The notes below the pieces were generated by a model, which ran no database searches, had not been told where the DNA came from, and saw only the letters and a list, made by a program, of their open reading frames with translations. Of a stretch of 64,000 nucleotides of DNA, positions 414-44,551 are shown in pieces. The stretch's first letter is position 1, and each line of letters starts with the position of its first letter. The stretch is taken from the NCBI GenBank assembly GCA_958295515.1, contig CATQGW010000001.1, positions 841,522 to 905,521 of the forward strand. Reading direction: 5' to 3'. The DNA is from an uncultured Dehalococcoidia bacterium (GTDB lineage: Bacteria > Chloroflexota > Dehalococcoidia > Bin125). Both the position numbers and the translations under genes were made by a program.

Positions 414-2408
414 ATGAGCAGCGAGCGGAACTACTGGCAGCGGATGCGGCGGTCGCGGATGAGTCGGCGCGCGCTGCTGCGCGCCTCGGGGCGCGCCGGC
501 GTGGGCGCGGCAGGTCTGGCGCTGGTGGGCTGCGGCGACGATGACGACGATGACCAGCAGACGGTCGCGCAACGCGCGCCGCAGCAGCAGGATCAGCCGG
601 CGCAGCAGCCGGCGATGCAGCAGCAACAGACGACGCAACAGCAGCAGCAGGCGGCGGACACGCAGGCGCAGGCGGCGGATCAGCAGGACGCGCCGGCCGA
701 CGACCAGCAGTCCGACCCGCAGCAGACGGTTTCGCAGAGCAACATCGTGCGCGGCGGCGACCTGCGCTTCTCGACGCCGGCGGCCACGCACGATTATTTC
801 GACCCGCACCGCGGCGTCTTCGGCCCCACCCAGTTCTGGATGGGCTTCTACATGAACTACCTGATCCGCTGGCGCAACAAGGAGCAGGGCATCCTGGAGG
901 CGGATGTCGCCTCGCTGCCGGAGATTCCCGACGAGGAGACCTACATCTTCGCCGTGGATCAGGGCGCGCGCTTCTGGGACCGCTACCCGACGGAGGGCGG
1001 GCGCGAGGTGACGGCGGAGGACGTGCAGATCAATTTCCAGCGGCAGATCGACGCGGTCGACGCGACCGGCACGGAGGACGGCACATTCCTGGGCGCCTCC
1101 TCCTTCCAGAAGACGGCGTCGACGGACGTGCCGGACAATCAGACCTTCATCGCCCGCACGGCGGGACCGGACGCGACCTGGATGGGCGTGCCGCTGCGCC
1201 CGTTCAGCTGGATCACGTCGCCCGAGGCGATTCAGGAGTTCGGCGACCGCTGGCGCGACGAGCCGACCAACGTCGAGCTCTCCAGCGGCACCGGGCCCTT
1301 CATCCCGATCAGCTACGACGCGGATATCGGCGTCGACATGATTCGCAACGAGAACTACTGGAAGCTGGGCGTCGATGGGCAGGCGCTGCCCTACTACGAC
1401 AGCGTCACCCATTCCAACCTGACCGACCCGACGGCGGTGGAGGCGGCCTACCGCGGCAAGGAAATCTTCGTCGGCGGCTTCCCGCTCTCGACTGTGCAGG
1501 CGGATGCGATCCTGGCCGATTTCCCGGACCACCGCTCGGGGCAGATCGCGTTCGGCTTCACGATCATCACGGGCGGCGCGAACTTCAACCCCGACTGGGC
1601 CGGCGAGGACGGCCTGGGCAACCCCTGGATTGACCGCCGCTTCGCGCAGGCGATGCATGTCGCGGTGGACCGCTACCTGATGATCGACGCGGTCTATCTC
1701 GGCTCGGGCAAGCCCAGCGGGATGGGCGAGACGCCGTGGTACAACGCCTTCTGGGCGATTCCCGAAGAGGAGCTGCTGGCCACGCCGGGCTTCCGTCCGG
1801 ACCGCGCGGCGGACATCGAAGAGGCGCGCGCGCTGTTGGACGCGAGCGGCTACGACCGCAGCCGCTCGCTCACGCTGATCGCGCCGGACATCTGGGAGGG
1901 CACCTACCCGGGCATCCTCGAGACCGAAGTGGGGATGTACCGCGAGGCGCTGGACATCGACGTGACCTTCGATGTGCAGCCCTACACGGTGATCCTGCAG
2001 CGCTGGATCGAGGGCACCTATCCGGGCCAGGGTCCGCAGTGGACCAACCCGCCTTCGGACCTCGATCCGACGACCTCCTACAACAACAACTACGTGCCCG
2101 GCGGCAGCACGAACAACCTCTACTACGACTTCCAGCCGATGACGGACATCGCGCAGGAGATGCAGACGACGCTGGATCTCGAGCAGCGCCAGTCGATGGC
2201 GCACGAGGCGCAGCGGATTCTGCTGGGCACGCACCCGGACTACGGGCTGGAGGGGATCGCCAACAGCCCGGCGGTGATGAACGGCATCTCGCCGGCGCTC
2301 TGGTGGCCGTTCGTGGAGCGCCCCGACGACAGCCTGCAGTTCGCCCACGCCTCGCACCGCTACGACGAGGGCTGGATCGATGTGAACCACCCCGACTACC
2401 CGGCCTGA
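414..2408 (+). CDS. Peptide/nickel-type ABC transporter solute-binding lipoprotein
   Basis: A 664-residue extracytoplasmic solute-binding protein (SBP_bac_5 family) that would capture an oligopeptide or other organic ligand for the permeases encoded just downstream. The N-terminus carries a twin-arginine signal (SRRALLR, residues 18-24), a hydrophobic stretch and a lipobox ending LVGC at Cys40, so it is probably a Tat-exported lipoprotein. Then come a DDDDDD run and a Gln/Ala-rich linker (about residues 45-110) that tethers the binding domain to the membrane. The binding domain begins near NIVRGGDLRFSTP. The ATG at 414 is chosen over an upstream TTG at 354 because of the Shine-Dalgarno and the export signal. 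The permease gene follows after 77 bases. Ligand not determinable. Confidence 0.92.
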   Translation: MSSERNYWQRMRRSRMSRRALLRASGRAGVGAAGLALVGCGDDDDDDQQTVAQRAPQQQDQPAQQPAMQQQQTTQQQQQAADTQAQAADQQDAPADDQQSDPQQTVSQSNIVRGGDLRFSTPAATHDYFDPHRGVFGPTQFWMGFYMNYLIRWRNKEQGILEADVASLPEIPDEETYIFAVDQGARFWDRYPTEGGREVTAEDVQINFQRQIDAVDATGTEDGTFLGASSFQKTASTDVPDNQTFIARTAGPDATWMGVPLRPFSWITSPEAIQEFGDRWRDEPTNVELSSGTGPFIPISYDADIGVDMIRNENYWKLGVDGQALPYYDSVTHSNLTDPTAVEAAYRGKEIFVGGFPLSTVQADAILADFPDHRSGQIAFGFTIITGGANFNPDWAGEDGLGNPWIDRRFAQAMHVAVDRYLMIDAVYLGSGKPSGMGETPWYNAFWAIPEEELLATPGFRPDRAADIEEARALLDASGYDRSRSLTLIAPDIWEGTYPGILETEVGMYREALDIDVTFDVQPYTVILQRWIEGTYPGQGPQWTNPPSDLDPTTSYNNNYVPGGSTNNLYYDFQPMTDIAQEMQTTLDLEQRQSMAHEAQRILLGTHPDYGLEGIANSPAVMNGISPALWWPFVERPDDSLQFAHASHRYDEGWIDVNHPDYPA

Positions 2409-2485: not shown

Positions 2486-3964
2486 ATGCAGAAGTACCTG
2501 ATCCGCCGGCTGATCCTCGTCATTCCGACGTTGTGGCTGGTGCTCTCGATTCTCTTCCTGGCGCTGCGCGCGCTGCCGGGCGATTTCGTCACGCGCAAGC
2601 TCTCGAACCTCGAGAACCAGGGCGCAGAGACGCGGCCGCAGGAGATCGCCGGCATCCTGGAGGTGGAGGACACGACCCACCGGGTGATCTCGGGCGACAC
2701 GCTGGAGAGCATCGCCCTCAGCGAAAACGTGACGGTCGATCATCTGCTCAGCGTCAATCCGAATCTGACCGCCGACTCGGTGCGGCCGGGTTCGCGGATC
2801 ATCACGATTCCGGGCAAGCTGCTCACGCAGGTCGCGATCTCGGAGCGGCTCTCGCTGCCGGAGGATGTCGCGCTCGGCGCGCAGTTATTGGTCGAGCGCA
2901 ATCCGGAGATCGACTTCCCATCGCAGAACGGAGCGCTCTACGCGCCGACGGGGACGAATCTGGTGCTGCGCGACAACATCAGCGTGGCGGAACTGGCGCG
3001 GGTGCATCGGATTGAAGCGCAGGACATTATCAACGCCAATCCGACCGGTACGCCGTTCAACCCCGACGGCGGCCTGAGCGGCGCGACGCTGCTCTATCCG
3101 GGCGACCGGATCACGATGCCGACGACGAAGATTACGGAGGCGAATATCCGTAATCGGCTGGGCATCGACAAGCCGATGGGGGTGCAGTACTACGAGTTCC
3201 TGTGGGAGACGGTGCGGCTCAAATTCCGTCCATCGTTCCAGACACAGGAGGATTCGCTGGACATCTTCCTGCGCGCGCTGCCGCGCTCGCTGCATCTGAT
3301 GGTCTACTCGTTGCTGATCGGTCTGCTGATCGCGTTCCCGGTGGGCATTCTCTCGGCGATGCGGCAGGACAAGCTGATCGACTACGTCCTGCGCGGCTTC
3401 GCAATCCTCGCCTTGGCGGCGCCGTCGTTCTGGGTCGCCACCATGCTGATCTTCGTGGTGACGCCGGGCGGCGTCGCGGAGGGAGGCATCTGGTCCATTC
3501 CATTGACCAGCGAGGAGGCGCGCAGCATCTTCACCTCCGTGTCCGGGTTCTTCGCGCTGTACACGATTCCGGCGGTGGCGGGCGGGATTGCGGCGGGCGC
3601 GGGGCTGATGCGGATCACCCGTTCCGAGCTGCTCGAGGTGCTGCGCCAGGATTACGTGCGCACGGCGTGGTCGAAAGGCCTGCGCGAGCGCACGGTGATT
3701 CGCCGCCACGCGCTGCGCAACGCGATGGTCAACGTGCTCAGCGTGCTCGGCCTCTCGATCGCGGCATTGGTCGGCGGCAACATCGTGCTGGAGCTGCTGT
3801 TCAACATTCCGGGCATTGGGCTGCTGCTGATTCAGCGCATCAACCAGGCGGACATCCCCGTCGTGCAGACGATGGTGTTCTTCTTCGCGCTGTTCATCAT
3901 CATCGTCAACATCGCAATCGATCTGACTTACGCGATGATCGATCCGCGCATTCGCTACACGTAG
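2486..3964 (+). CDS. ABC permease (DppB/OppB family) with LysM-like external loop domains
   Basis: Inner-membrane permease subunit, 492 residues against roughly 310-340 for the family. TM1 is residues 4-30 with the family signature ending ALPGDF. Between TM1 and the next hydrophobic segment (from about 268) lies a 200-residue external insertion. Residues 65-109 read as a LysM domain (HRVISGDTLESIA, then LLSVNPN and RPGSRIITIP); residues 159-212 are a second, degenerate one (INANP, LLYPGDRITMP). The C-terminal half has the ordinary transmembrane core and an intact EAA coupling loop (about 388-418, DYVRTAWSKGL) for binding the ATPase. It is followed 10 bases later by the partner permease. Family is certain; the LysM reading is from motif inspection and the peptidoglycan-binding role is inferred. 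Confidence 0.9.
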   Translation: MQKYLIRRLILVIPTLWLVLSILFLALRALPGDFVTRKLSNLENQGAETRPQEIAGILEVEDTTHRVISGDTLESIALSENVTVDHLLSVNPNLTADSVRPGSRIITIPGKLLTQVAISERLSLPEDVALGAQLLVERNPEIDFPSQNGALYAPTGTNLVLRDNISVAELARVHRIEAQDIINANPTGTPFNPDGGLSGATLLYPGDRITMPTTKITEANIRNRLGIDKPMGVQYYEFLWETVRLKFRPSFQTQEDSLDIFLRALPRSLHLMVYSLLIGLLIAFPVGILSAMRQDKLIDYVLRGFAILALAAPSFWVATMLIFVVTPGGVAEGGIWSIPLTSEEARSIFTSVSGFFALYTIPAVAGGIAAGAGLMRITRSELLEVLRQDYVRTAWSKGLRERTVIRRHALRNAMVNVLSVLGLSIAALVGGNIVLELLFNIPGIGLLLIQRINQADIPVVQTMVFFFALFIIIVNIAIDLTYAMIDPRIRYT

Positions 3965-3974
3965 GGATGCCTGA

Positions 3975-5219
3975 ATGAGCGACCGCGCCCCCACCCCCGC
4001 AGGAGAAGGTCTGGAAGAGTTCGCCGCCGCGCAGGGCCTGCGGGTGGAGGAGCGGAGCCTGGGACGGCTGCTGCTCAACGGGCTGCGGTCCTTCTTCCGC
4101 ACCAAGCCGCTCGGCGCGGGCGGGCTGGTGCTGGTGGTGGTCTGGTCGCTGATTGCGGTGGGCACGGTCGGCGACGGCGGCGGCTGGCTGGGCCTCGGGC
4201 GCTACGACTCGCAAGAGGTGTTCAAGGTCGCCAACGCCAATTTCGCCGACGACAAAGTCGCCAACGCGCTCGACGGGATGTCGGCGGATATCTCGCGGGC
4301 GGAGCTGACGACGCTGTTGATCGATCCGAATGTGTACGGCGATCTGGCCATTCAGAGCAATGTCGTCGACGACATGCTCGAGTACGTGCAGGGTCTGATC
4401 GACGAGGGCCTGCTGCTCACCCACCTCGCGGAGCTCGACCCGGCGCAGATCGAGATCACCGACGGTGTGATTTACGACGTTGACGATCTGCTCGCCACGG
4501 GCACGAACACGCCGCTCACCACCGCCTCGCTACAGGGGCCGTCGGGCAAGCACTGGTTCGGCACCGACCGAGCGGGGCACGATCTGTACTCGCGGGTGAC
4601 TGAGGGTGCGCGGCTGTCGCTCTACATCGGCTTCTTCGCGACGCTGATCGGTGTCGCGGCGGGGACGGTGATCGGGCTGGTCAGCGGCGGGGTCGGCGGC
4701 AACGTTGATCTCGGCATTAACCGCTTTATGGACGCGATTCAGTCGTTCCCGCCGATTGTCTTCCTGCTGCTGCTGCGCTCCGTGACGGAGCCGTCGGCGC
4801 TGTGGGTGACGCTGGCGCTGTCGGCGCTGGCGATCGCGCCGGTGCAGCGAATTGTGCGCGGGGCGGTGATCGCGCTGCGCGAAGCGCCGTTCGTGGAGGC
4901 GGCGCGCTCGATCGGCGCCTCCAACGCCCGCGTGATGAGCATCCACATTCTGCCCAACATCGTGGCGCCGCTGATCGTGATTTTCAGCATCACCGTCGGC
5001 GCATTCATCCTCGCCGAGGCGACGCTGAGCTTCCTCGGTCTGGGCACGCTGGATGTGTCGTGGGGCAAGATGATCGCGGACGGACGCCAGTTCATCGTGC
5101 AGTCGCCCTGGACGAGCCTCTTCGCCGGGCTGGCGCTGACCTCGCTGGTCTTCGGCTTCAACGTGCTGGGCGATGCGTTGCGGGATGTCTTCGACCCGCG
5201 TCTGCGCGGCTCGCGCTAG
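3975..5219 (+). CDS. ABC permease (DppC/OppC family) with enlarged external loop
   Basis: Second permease subunit, 414 residues. TM1 lies near residues 43-60; the family motif HWFGTDRAGHDLYSRV appears only at about residue 193, so roughly 120 extra residues (50-190) sit in the loop facing outside. The core follows, with the EAA loop (VEAARSIGASNARV, about 308-321) intact and the usual ending VLGDALRDVFDPRLRG. It should pair with the upstream permease and use an ATPase encoded elsewhere, since none lies in this window. The extra loop matches that of the paralogue at 6932-7990, so it is a conserved feature of this transporter type and not an accident. Its fold is not recognised. Confidence 0.92.
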   Translation: MSDRAPTPAGEGLEEFAAAQGLRVEERSLGRLLLNGLRSFFRTKPLGAGGLVLVVVWSLIAVGTVGDGGGWLGLGRYDSQEVFKVANANFADDKVANALDGMSADISRAELTTLLIDPNVYGDLAIQSNVVDDMLEYVQGLIDEGLLLTHLAELDPAQIEITDGVIYDVDDLLATGTNTPLTTASLQGPSGKHWFGTDRAGHDLYSRVTEGARLSLYIGFFATLIGVAAGTVIGLVSGGVGGNVDLGINRFMDAIQSFPPIVFLLLLRSVTEPSALWVTLALSALAIAPVQRIVRGAVIALREAPFVEAARSIGASNARVMSIHILPNIVAPLIVIFSITVGAFILAEATLSFLGLGTLDVSWGKMIADGRQFIVQSPWTSLFAGLALTSLVFGFNVLGDALRDVFDPRLRGSR

Positions 5220-5660: not shown

Positions 5661-6935
5661 ATGAAACATCTCGTCGTCCGCCACTTTCTGATCGCCCTGC
5701 TCTCGCTTTGGGTGGCGCTGTCGTTGGTCTTTCTGATTGTTCGGGTCGCCCCCGGCGACTTTGTGGCGCAGAAACTTGCTGCGCTCGAAACTCAGGGAGC
5801 GGAACAGCGACCGACTCAAATCGTCGGCGCGATCATCGTCGAGCACGATGCTCCGCTGTCCGAGATCGCCGTTGAGCAGCGGCTGGTCCGCGAGGAGCAC
5901 GCCGAGGATGGCGCGGCGCTGCTATTGGAGCGCAACCCGAACGTTGAATTTCCGCTTGTCGACGGGGAGCCGTCGGCGCGGGCGGGGACCGAGCTGACGC
6001 TGCGCGAGCGAGTGACGATTGCCGATCTCGCGTACGCCTATCGAATCGAATCCGACGACATCCTCGATGCGAACCCGGCCGGATCGCTGACCAATCCGGA
6101 TGGCCAGCTTGCGGCCGACACGGTGCTTCATCCGGGCGACTGGATTGTGATGCCCACGACCACGATTGTGGAGGCGAACATTCGCCGCCGCCTCGGGGTC
6201 GATCGTTCGCTGGGCGCGCAGTATGGCGACTTTCTCTGGCATGTCGTGCGTTTCGACTTCGGAGCCAGCGTCCAGACGCAGGAGAGCGCTCTTTCCGTGG
6301 TGGGGGTGGTGTTGCCGCGGACCGTGCAGCTGAACCTCTACGCGCTCATCGTCGCCGCGCTGATCGGACTACCGCTTGGTTTTGCCGCGCTGCGCTTGCG
6401 CGGCAGGCGCATCGCCGCCGTGCTGCAGAGCGGCAGCGCCGTGCTGTGGGCGCTGCCGTCGTTCTGGCTTGTGCTCTTCCTGATCGGAATGGTCGCTGCG
6501 CGCGGGTATTTCTTCGAAGACGGGCTTTGGTGGATTCCGCTGCTCGACCATGATGCCTACAGCATCACCAGCTCGCCGACGGGCTTTCTGGCGCTGTACA
6601 GCCTCCCGGCGGTCGCGGCCGGTCTGCCGCTGGCGGCCGTGATATTCGCCGCGTGCGCGCCCCACTCGGATGATCGGGAGCGCGATCTGCGAGCGATTGC
6701 ACGCCGCCTGCTCGCTGCGCTGCGCATTCAGTTGCCGATATTGATTGGCTTCAACTTCATTCTGGAGTTGATGTTCGCGCTCCCGGGGCTCGGCTTCGTG
6801 TTGTTCGGGAGCTTGAACCGATCCGATACTCCGCTCATCAGCGCGGTCGCCTGCGTGACCGTGCTCTTCATGGTCTTCTGCTATTTCGCAATCGATATGG
6901 CGCGCGCGGGGCTGGATCGGGAGGCTCGCGCATGA
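5661..6935 (+). CDS. Degenerate ABC permease (DppB-type) lacking the EAA loop
   Basis: Paralogue of the permease at 2486-3964 (424 residues): TM1 (4-30, VAPGDF), an external loop and a transmembrane core align well. Two pieces are missing. The first LysM-like domain (residues 62-110 of the paralogue) is deleted while the second (about 115-166, DANPAG and LHPGDWIVMP) is kept. The cytoplasmic EAA coupling loop is replaced by a short charged stretch (APHSDDRERDLRAIARRLL, nucleotides about 6658-6715). The frame is otherwise intact with normal codon use, so it looks maintained, but it could not dock an ATPase in the standard way. The next permease gene overlaps by 4 bases (ATGA). Could be a pseudo-transporter, regulator or sensor. 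Confidence 0.8.
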   Translation: MKHLVVRHFLIALLSLWVALSLVFLIVRVAPGDFVAQKLAALETQGAEQRPTQIVGAIIVEHDAPLSEIAVEQRLVREEHAEDGAALLLERNPNVEFPLVDGEPSARAGTELTLRERVTIADLAYAYRIESDDILDANPAGSLTNPDGQLAADTVLHPGDWIVMPTTTIVEANIRRRLGVDRSLGAQYGDFLWHVVRFDFGASVQTQESALSVVGVVLPRTVQLNLYALIVAALIGLPLGFAALRLRGRRIAAVLQSGSAVLWALPSFWLVLFLIGMVAARGYFFEDGLWWIPLLDHDAYSITSSPTGFLALYSLPAVAAGLPLAAVIFAACAPHSDDRERDLRAIARRLLAALRIQLPILIGFNFILELMFALPGLGFVLFGSLNRSDTPLISAVACVTVLFMVFCYFAIDMARAGLDREARA

Positions 6936-7990
6936 GCGGCGTCGGGCTGCGAGCGTTGGCAGCGATTCGGGCGCAGCCGCCGGCGGCGTTCGGGTTGTTG
7001 ATCCTGCTGGTCTGGAGTATCGCGGCGGTCGGGGCAATCGGCGATGGCGCGGGTTGGATGCGCATTGGGCGCTATGGCCCGGCGGAGGCGTTTGAGGCAG
7101 CGAATCTGGAGTTCGCGGAGGCGCGGGCGGCCGACGCGCTGGACGGTCAACCCGTTGATCTGACCGGCGAGGAACTGACGGCGCTGCTGACGCAGCCGCA
7201 GGTCTACGGCGAGCTCGTTTCCGATCCCGCCGTGATCGACAAGTTCAGCTCCCATATCCGCGGCTTGATCGAGGACGGAGCGCTGGCTGAACGTTTGACG
7301 AGCGGCTTCCACCCGCTGCTGCAAGTGAGCGACGGGCGGTTCGCGCTTGCGCCGCGCTCGATCACCGCGATCACGCCGCGTCCGCTGGTGACTGCGAGTT
7401 TGGAGCGTCCCTCGTGGCGGCACTGGCTTGGCACGAATCGGGCGGGGAACGATATCTACGCGGGAATCATCGATACGGCCTGGATTCCGCTGATGATCGG
7501 ATTCCTGGGCGCGCTCTTCGGCGTGGCCGCCGGGGCGGCGATCGGGTGGCTGCAACGCCGCGATGGGCGGACCGAGTGGCTCGACGGGCTGATCGGCGGC
7601 GTGTACGCCTTTCCGCCGATCTTGCTGCTGCTGCTGTTCGTGACGTATGTCGAGTACGGGCAGATCTGGTTTGCAGTCGTGCTGGCTCCGTTCGCGCTGG
7701 TTCCGGCGGCGCGGGCTGCCCGCGATGCGGAGTCCGTCCGCGGGGCGGCCGCGCCGTTGCTGGGGCTGTTCGGGGTGATGATGGCGACGTTTGCGCTGAT
7801 CGAGGCGGGAACCAGCTTCGTGGGCTTCGGACTCGGCGGGTGGGGCCGGATGATCGCCGATGGGCGGCAGTTCGTCGTGCAGGCGCCGTGGTGGAGTCTG
7901 TTCGCCGGGTTGGCGCTAATCTCAGTGGCGTTCGCCGCATTCGCGCTCGGGCGCGGCCTGCAACGTCTGGTGGAGCATGACCCAACCTGA
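6932..7990 (+). CDS. Degenerate ABC permease (DppC-type) lacking the EAA loop
   Basis: Paralogue of the permease at 3975-5219 (352 residues). It keeps TM1, the same enlarged external loop (for instance RYGPAEAFEAANLEFA), the HWLGTNRAGNDIYAG motif and the ending MIADGRQFVVQAPWWSLFAG. About 28 residues containing the EAA motif are deleted: where the paralogue has the coupling helix, this one runs AARDAESVRGAAAPLLGLFG straight into the last transmembrane region. Both partners of this second pair have thus lost the ATPase contact. Start by ATGA overlap with the upstream permease; its own stop overlaps the start of the metallo-hydrolase gene at 7977. Confidence 0.8.
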   Translation: MSGVGLRALAAIRAQPPAAFGLLILLVWSIAAVGAIGDGAGWMRIGRYGPAEAFEAANLEFAEARAADALDGQPVDLTGEELTALLTQPQVYGELVSDPAVIDKFSSHIRGLIEDGALAERLTSGFHPLLQVSDGRFALAPRSITAITPRPLVTASLERPSWRHWLGTNRAGNDIYAGIIDTAWIPLMIGFLGALFGVAAGAAIGWLQRRDGRTEWLDGLIGGVYAFPPILLLLLFVTYVEYGQIWFAVVLAPFALVPAARAARDAESVRGAAAPLLGLFGVMMATFALIEAGTSFVGFGLGGWGRMIADGRQFVVQAPWWSLFAGLALISVAFAAFALGRGLQRLVEHDPT

Positions 7991-42565: not shown

Positions 42566-44551
42566 TTAGGCGGGGTAGTCGGGATGCCCCGTGTCCAGCC
42601 AGCTGTCGTCGTAGCGGTGCGAGGCGTGGGCGAACTGGTAGACATCCGGCGAGTTGTTGACGTAGGGCCACTCGACCTGCGGGGAGATCGCGTTCATCAC
42701 CGAGGGCTGCCCGGTCATCCCCTCGACGCCGTGGTCGGGGTGGACGCCGAGGAAGATCCTGAGCAGCTCGCTGGCGGTCTCCATCCGCTTCTCGATGTCG
42801 AGCTCGCTCTTCATGCCGAGGATCATCTCCTCGGCGGGCGGGTAGTTGTACTGCGAGAAGTTGGAGCTGCCGCCGGCCACATGGGTGATGTTCCACTCGC
42901 CGGTCGGGTCCAGGTCCTGGGGCGGGTTGGTCCAGGCCGGCGTCTGCCCGGGGTGCGTGCCCTCCAGCAGGCGCTGGAGGATCACCGTGTAGGGCTGGAT
43001 GTCCATCGAGAGTTCGACATCGAGCGCCTGCTCGTACATCGCTTTGACGGTCTCCGTGATGCCCGGGTAGGTCTGCTCCCAGACATCCGGGGTGATCCAG
43101 TAGAAGGTGCGGCTGCCCGGTTCGACGCCGGCGGCGCTCATCAGATCGCGCGCCATCTTGATGTCTGCATCCCGATCGGGGCGGTAGCCCGGCCAGGTGG
43201 CGAGCTCATCGGGCGGCACGGTCCAAGCCTGGTTGAACCAGGGCGCCTGGGCGATCGCCGAAATCTTGGCCGAGCCGAGATAGACGGAGTCGATCAGCTG
43301 ATAGCGGTCGGTGGCGACATGGAAGGCGTAGGCAAGCCGGCGATCGGCCCACGGGTTGCCGAGGCCGTCCTCACCCTCCCACTCGGCGTTGAAGTTGTAG
43401 CGGATCTGGATCGTGAAGCCGAACGGCACGTCGAACGACTGATGATTGGGGAAGTCGGCGAGGATGCCCTCGACCTGCAGGCTGGAGAGCGGGAAGCCGC
43501 CGATGTCGATGCCCTTGCCGCGGTAGGCGGCGTCGACCGTGGTGGCGTCGAGCAGATTGGTGAACTCGATGCGGTCCAGATAGGGCAGCGGGCCGCCGTC
43601 GTCGCCCTGCTTCCAGTAGTCGGGGTTGGCGTTGAGGTTGATCCCGATGTCGGGGTCGTAGAGCTCGGGGATGTAGGCCCCGGTGCCGGAGGAGAGTTCG
43701 ACGTTGGTCTGCTCGTCGCGCCAGCGGTTGCCGAACTCCTCGACTGCTTCGGGCGACGTGATCCAGGAGAACGGACCGAGATGGACGCCGAGATAGGTGG
43801 CGTCGGCCTCGGCCGTGGTGAACTTGATCGTCGCCTCGTCCACCACCTCGATCGAGTCGGTCTGCTGGTATTTGCTGGCCGAGAGGAACGATGTGTCCTG
43901 CACGCCGTCGGCGTCGACCGAGTCGATCTGGCGCTGGGCGTTGTAGCGGATGTCCTCGGCGGTGACCATCCGCCCGCCCTCGGTGGGGAACTGATTCCAG
44001 AAGCGCGCGCCCTGGTCAACGCTGAAGATGTAGGTCGTGTCGTCGGGGACTTCGGGCAGCGAGGCGATGTCGGGCTCCATGAGCCCGCGCTCCTTGTTGC
44101 GCCAGCGGATCAGGTAGTTCATGTAGAGGCCCATCCAGAACTGGGTGGGCCCGAAGACGCCGCGGTGCGGGTCGAAGTAGTCGTGAGTGGCGGCCGGAGT
44201 GGAGAAGCGCAGGGTGCCGCCGCGCACGATGTTGGAGGTCTGCGCGACGGTCTGGGTCTGCTGCTGCTGATCGTCGGCCGGCGCATCCTGCTGCTCGGCC
44301 TGCTGCGCCTGCTGCTCGGCAGCCGTCGCTTGCTGCTGTTGCTCCGTCGCCTGCTGCGCGGCGGGCTGATCCTGCTGCTGTCGGGTGGTCTGCTGCGCGG
44401 CCAGCTGATCGTCGTCATCGTCGTCGTCGCCGCAGCCGACGAGCGCGAGGCCGGCCGCGCCAACCCCGGCGCGGCCGGAGGCGCGCAGCAGCGAACGCCT
44501 GCTCATCCGTGAGGTGCGCATTCGCTGCCAGTAGTTGGGTCGCTCGCTCAT
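42566..44551 (-). CDS. Peptide/nickel-type ABC transporter solute-binding lipoprotein
   Basis: A 661-residue SBP_bac_5 protein, paralogue of 414-2408. It shares the twin-arginine signal (SRRSLLR, residues 18-24), lipobox LVGC (Cys40), an Asp run, a Gln/Ala-rich linker to about 110 and the binding domain starting NIVRGGTLRFSTP. The C-terminal residues diverge after HASHRYDDSWLDTGHPDYPA. No permease or ATPase gene is adjacent, so it may feed the transporter encoded near the left end or one elsewhere. Ligand unknown. Confidence 0.92.
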   Translation of the reverse strand: MSERPNYWQRMRTSRMSRRSLLRASGRAGVGAAGLALVGCGDDDDDDDQLAAQQTTRQQQDQPAAQQATEQQQQATAAEQQAQQAEQQDAPADDQQQQTQTVAQTSNIVRGGTLRFSTPAATHDYFDPHRGVFGPTQFWMGLYMNYLIRWRNKERGLMEPDIASLPEVPDDTTYIFSVDQGARFWNQFPTEGGRMVTAEDIRYNAQRQIDSVDADGVQDTSFLSASKYQQTDSIEVVDEATIKFTTAEADATYLGVHLGPFSWITSPEAVEEFGNRWRDEQTNVELSSGTGAYIPELYDPDIGINLNANPDYWKQGDDGGPLPYLDRIEFTNLLDATTVDAAYRGKGIDIGGFPLSSLQVEGILADFPNHQSFDVPFGFTIQIRYNFNAEWEGEDGLGNPWADRRLAYAFHVATDRYQLIDSVYLGSAKISAIAQAPWFNQAWTVPPDELATWPGYRPDRDADIKMARDLMSAAGVEPGSRTFYWITPDVWEQTYPGITETVKAMYEQALDVELSMDIQPYTVILQRLLEGTHPGQTPAWTNPPQDLDPTGEWNITHVAGGSSNFSQYNYPPAEEMILGMKSELDIEKRMETASELLRIFLGVHPDHGVEGMTGQPSVMNAISPQVEWPYVNNSPDVYQFAHASHRYDDSWLDTGHPDYPA

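Follow-up and report, generated by a model that had tools for sequence, protein, structure and literature searches.

A LysM array in the TM1–TM2 loop of a DppB-type permease from uncultured Dehalococcoidia

Introduction

Type I ABC importers are commonly viewed as machines in the membrane that rely on mobile binding proteins. The solved DppB/OppB permeases from Escherichia coli (8z1v-8z1z, 8z21) and Mycobacterium tuberculosis (8wd9, 8j5q) comprise 306–339 residues without a LysM array, and ATPase genes beside the permease genes are usual for Dpp/Opp operons but do not define the permease. In the maltose importer, also of type I, the permease MalF offers a precedent: its P2 loop, which faces outward, holds a large folded domain. 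LysM modules of the beta-alpha-alpha-beta fold, on the other hand, sit on secreted enzymes in the NlpC/P60 endopeptidase of Thermus thermophilus (4uz2) and in plant and algal chitinases (5bum, 5k2l).

Here, we describe a permease gene from an uncultured Dehalococcoidia bacterium that places the same LysM fold inside a membrane pore subunit. It was found in a stretch of 64,000 nucleotides, referred to as the window. Our favoured, though tentative, reading, to which we give a probability of roughly 45%, is that the LysM array binds the cell's own peptidoglycan and so holds the pore at the wall.

Permease gene and LysM modules

The gene at positions 2486..3964 (+) encodes a protein of 492 aa (P0001). 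The reading frame is genuine, and a Pfam match to BPD_transp_1 over residues 284–490 (E 1.3e-36) bears out the preliminary description of its product as a DppB-type permease. The EAA-type coupling loop is intact (residues 376–414, 3611..3727, +); in an alignment of 32 rows (A3) it was present in all 28 coupled copies and missing from all four EAA-less ones. With this core and loop, and with genes for a DppC-type permease and a family 5 binding protein adjoining, P0001 has the make-up of a DppB/OppB importer subunit.

Profile and fold searches both returned the E. coli and M. tuberculosis DppB/OppB proteins as solved relatives, corresponding over their whole chain in TM1, pore, and EAA loop. 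Since in the profile of 32 relatives these chains align only from residue 213–223 on, after TM1, the LysM stretch falls between TM1 and the remaining pore, giving P0001 a TM1–TM2 loop about 165 residues longer than in the solved proteins. Judging from the topology of those transporters, this loop would face outside. Matches to two OppB-type models also begin late, at position 144 of 388 in NF043081 and 87 of 364 in NF011712 (YejB), so that these permeases may likewise have long outward loops, although to our knowledge their long N-terminal parts have not been described as LysM.

Within the loop, LysM (PF01476) was matched at residues 65–106 with E 8.7e-10; the bit score of 38.8 exceeds the cut-off of 20.9. 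The Pfam scan gave no match for the two modules that follow. Among the 32 relatives scanned, 28 matched LysM at E <= 1, and two stretches matched in a 541-aa orthologue; two EAA-less paralogues, each scanned singly, gave no LysM match. Using hhalign, the modules were compared with nine LysM domains that this genome encodes, alongside three control regions, which scored 0.1–0.3%. Module 1 (residues 65–109, 2678..2812, +) reached 98.4%, module 3 (residues 159–212, 2960..3121, +) 87.2% (E 3.8e-6) or 74.7%, depending on the cut, and module 2 (residues 110–158, 2813..2959, +) weakly 13.3% and 35.4% in two runs. Orthologues in the sister genus carry a fourth module, which scored 96.9%.

In an AlphaFold2 run on the 32-row alignment, residues 51–210 were modelled at a block pLDDT of 74–91 as three consecutive beta-alpha-alpha-beta units (module 1: E63-66, H73-79, H84-90, E104-108; module 2: E110-112, H113-119, H125-138, E150-154; module 3: E158-160, H167-173, H178-184, E208-211). 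The permease core was modelled poorly (block pLDDT 41–77, pTM 0.44). Module 1 superposed on the chitinase LysM 5bum_A with VIA-align (Z 7.3, rmsd 1.3, 49 residues at 61–109); a Z below 8 is weak by itself but agrees with the LysM sequence profile of this module. Foldseek ranked tandem LysM proteins under the DppB chains for the P0001 model, with 4uz2 at E 0.045 and probability 1.00, and 5k2l matched with a TM of 0.86 by target length.

A chance match to LysM was rejected on the Pfam result, the hhalign profiles against the controls, and the AlphaFold2 fold. The preliminary description had staked its claim on profile and fold, and the profile search did find LysM and the model the expected fold. 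Of the two LysM domains proposed there, the good one at 65–109 was confirmed, and the weaker one at 159–212 stands by profile and model, albeit without a Pfam match; the middle module at 110–158 had been missed.

Modules 1 and 4 retain the full LysM consensus, whereas modules 2 and 3 have diverged from it and may be unable to bind glycan. GlcNAc polymers are the ligands of LysM families, and the best PDB sequence match of the insert, at E 4.1e-7, is to the chitin effector Ecp6. Both would suit an array that captures glycan-containing substrates, such as muropeptides, chitooligosaccharides, or glycopeptides, perhaps from a host or from lysed neighbours, and concentrates them at the pore. Such an origin of substrate would also fit the carrier bin125, a sponge symbiont that is listed in a table of PMC5649159 as coming from Aplysina aerophoba. 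A domain fixed to the permease would, however, compete with the mobile binding proteins, and we consider substrate capture unlikely.

Distribution and selection

Searching other genomes for the fusion, as had been proposed, located the LysM insert in 16 of 20 genomes of the same order (all but G002, G004, G006, and G010), while none of 373 genomes elsewhere in the class matched better than E 1e-30. Matches at E <= 0.001 occurred in 56 of these 373; they were weak (E 5.3e-7 or worse) and covered nearly always module 1 alone. A spread of the fusion through the phylum was rejected, because among 400 phylum genomes only four members of the order scored better than E 1e-30; six others matched one LysM stretch each (E 1.1e-8 to 7.5e-7). 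The order holds 36 LysM-permease loci, 31 of the coupled and five of the EAA-less type, as split by E-value and ORF length. A named genome collection yielded 19 loci, all in MAGs titled Dehalococcoidia or Chloroflexi/Chloroflexota, and the plasmid records searched contained no match to the insert. Fusion, conservation, and operon alike can be read directly from these genomes.

Given the independent MAGs, the 19 loci of the named collection, the strong Pfam match, and the confidently modelled insert, the chance that the fusion is an artefact, i.e., a fortuitous pattern match or an assembly chimera, is negligible. Among the relatives searched, the sequences point to an architecture specific to one order of Chloroflexota. 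Its parts are known; for their combination in a pore subunit, no LysM-permease fusion is named in the literature searched, a scope that most subscription journals lie outside.

In six close pairs, dN/dS was 0.058–0.133 for the insert and 0.005–0.026 for the pore, i.e., the insert is under purifying selection, yet evolves several-fold faster than the pore. Together with profile, predicted fold, and conservation, this upholds the earlier proposal of LysM in the outward TM1–TM2 loop of a DppB-type permease. As the insert changes faster than the pore and the number of modules varies, with four in the sister genus and two in the EAA-less copy of the window, its exact geometry seems not to be needed. 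This fast evolution, with gain and loss of modules, is also what a tolerated, largely functionless domain acquisition would display, but the low dN/dS in all six pairs and the retention in 31 coupled-type loci make that explanation highly improbable.

Partner permease and operon

Directly downstream, 3975..5219 (+) encodes the DppC-type partner permease (BPD_transp_1, E 3.3e-24; alignment A4). This protein also carries an insert in its TM1–TM2 loop, about 110 residues long and mostly helical in the model (4170..4508, +; alignment A5). In the sequence searches the insert appears to belong to no known family: the Pfam scan gave no match apart from a weak one to MTS in one of seven rows, no PDB sequence matched below E 0.5, and fold searches with the DppC model returned ABC transporters only. 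A putative relative in G167 (E 2.7e-4) was rejected since no permease-like ORF exists there. The DppC insert was present in exactly the 16 of 20 order genomes that have the LysM-bearing DppB, and G001 has one additional copy (C81), whose contig is short and shows no adjoining B gene.

Upstream, 414..2408 (+) encodes a family 5 solute-binding lipoprotein (SBP_bac_5, E 5.1e-29) with a Tat-like signal; its reading frame opens at 354, and 414 is the probable start. Behind the lipobox Cys it has a Gln-rich linker of 81 residues. A binding protein of the same subfamily is encoded at 42566-44551 (−) of the window, and Gln-rich linkers of 78–98 residues between lipobox Cys and domain were seen in both proteins as well as in L040, L044, and L055-L067, inside and outside the operon. 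Several paralogues of the binding protein occur in the operon.

These paralogues, the position of the B and C inserts in the same loop and their co-occurrence in the very same genomes, and the loss of LysM sequence hallmarks from modules 2 and 3 with the fold kept would all suit another role, in which LysM array and DppC insert form a docking collar for the binding proteins and the LysM fold acts as rigid spacing material instead of binding sugar. The MalF P2 loop docks the maltose-binding protein, a precedent that favours contact with binding proteins over anchoring, although P2 differs from the P0001 insert in its fold and in the loop that carries it. What makes docking the strongest rival to anchoring is the joint presence of inserts on both permeases and the drift of two modules out of three; we nevertheless regard docking as somewhat unlikely, as modules 1 and 4 hold a full LysM consensus that a mere spacer would not need.

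The genome has a second LysM permease about 10 kb upstream (C1:832845; 69% identity), and the window itself gave DppB-type permease matches at 2486 and 5661 only. In ten long loci (L055-L064), the gene order is binding protein(s), a long LysM-B (mostly 541 aa), C, binding protein, a short LysM-B (mostly 493 aa), and C, in some cases followed by an EAA-less B and C. In the genome studied here, a short B and C come first, then binding proteins, then the genes of the window. In the tree, the 541-aa forms are the neighbours of the window gene (95/88), and the second copy falls with the 493-aa forms (100/99 for all 15 together). On this tree, it is therefore simpler that the sister genus gained module 4 than that the window gene lost it, although such a loss may still have occurred.

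Cell wall genes and ATPases

The genome encodes penicillin-binding proteins (five Transpeptidase matches at four loci) and Mur ligases (six Mur_ligase_M matches), so that its own peptidoglycan would be available as a ligand, and a grip on the wall or a sensing of muropeptides, as suggested in the preliminary description, is possible. This differs from the SAR202 genomes of PMC6306507, which are described there as lacking peptidoglycan genes. At L041:6620-8400, a 612-residue ORF contains six LysM domains followed by a part that we take to be M23-peptidase-like from its motif.

The linked DppD/DppF ATPases of a complete Dpp/Opp operon are missing here. Neither the window nor loci L055-L068 contained an ABC ATPase motif pair, and the sole find in L040 was an exporter-type half transporter, encoded on the opposite strand. 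Elsewhere, the genome has three oligo_HPY ATPases, none of them beside the LysM-permease operons, and 18 DppB-like places, the EAA-less copy included; dipeptide-type ATPases were located at C2:157170-158697 and C1:354552. Across the 16 carrier genomes, the number of oligo_HPY ATPases was three in 13, two in one, and one in two. The ATPases are probably shared in trans among permeases.

A paralogue pair without EAA loops

The second permease pair of the window consists of a LysM-B paralogue (5661..6935, +) that lacks module 1 and, by Pfam and alignment, the EAA loop of a coupled permease, and a DppC paralogue (6932..7990, +; alignment A4) that lacks the EAA region and keeps the C-type insert (match E 1.4e-21). 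The former had been described as keeping only the second domain; this needs correction, as the alignment shows that both modules 2 and 3 are retained (5847..6155, +) and module 1 is gone. Among sister taxa, dN/dS of EAA-less copies was about 0.25–0.33 in insert and pore, and that of the window copy 0.36–0.58 at a dS > 1, near saturation. A pair without the EAA loop in both subunits is still kept in five of 20 order genomes. Such a pair might be a transport-dead receptor derived from a wall sensor, in which the density of glycan strands or free muropeptides would gate, or be reported through, the LysM permease; we consider this role for the array rather improbable.

Discussion

Weighing these results, we prefer anchoring to the wall. 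It is favoured by the LysM assignment from Pfam, profile, and fold, the position in the loop, the intact EAA loop, the selection on the insert, the 31 coupled-type loci in 16 of 20 genomes, the wall genes, and the operons that lack a dipeptide ATPase, of which the genome has three elsewhere, whereas the drift of modules 2 and 3, the changing number of modules, the four of 20 genomes without insert, and the poorly modelled core speak against it. Under anchoring, a type I Dpp/Opp importer would have gained extracellular domains in the TM1–TM2 loops of both permeases, three tandem LysM modules (four in sister taxa) in the DppB part and a helical domain in the DppC part. The array, chiefly module 1 and, where present, module 4, would bind the cell's own peptidoglycan at its glycan strands and thereby hold the pore at the wall. 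Substrate would be delivered by several binding proteins, all tethered by lipid and equipped with a Gln-rich linker of ~80-98 residues, and ATP hydrolysis would probably come from dipeptide-type ATPases encoded elsewhere.

If this is true, import in these bacteria would be fixed to the wall, or tuned by it, through a glycan- or wall-binding array borne by the pore itself and a matching new domain in its partner, all within one compact gene pair of a lineage to which a sponge symbiont belongs.
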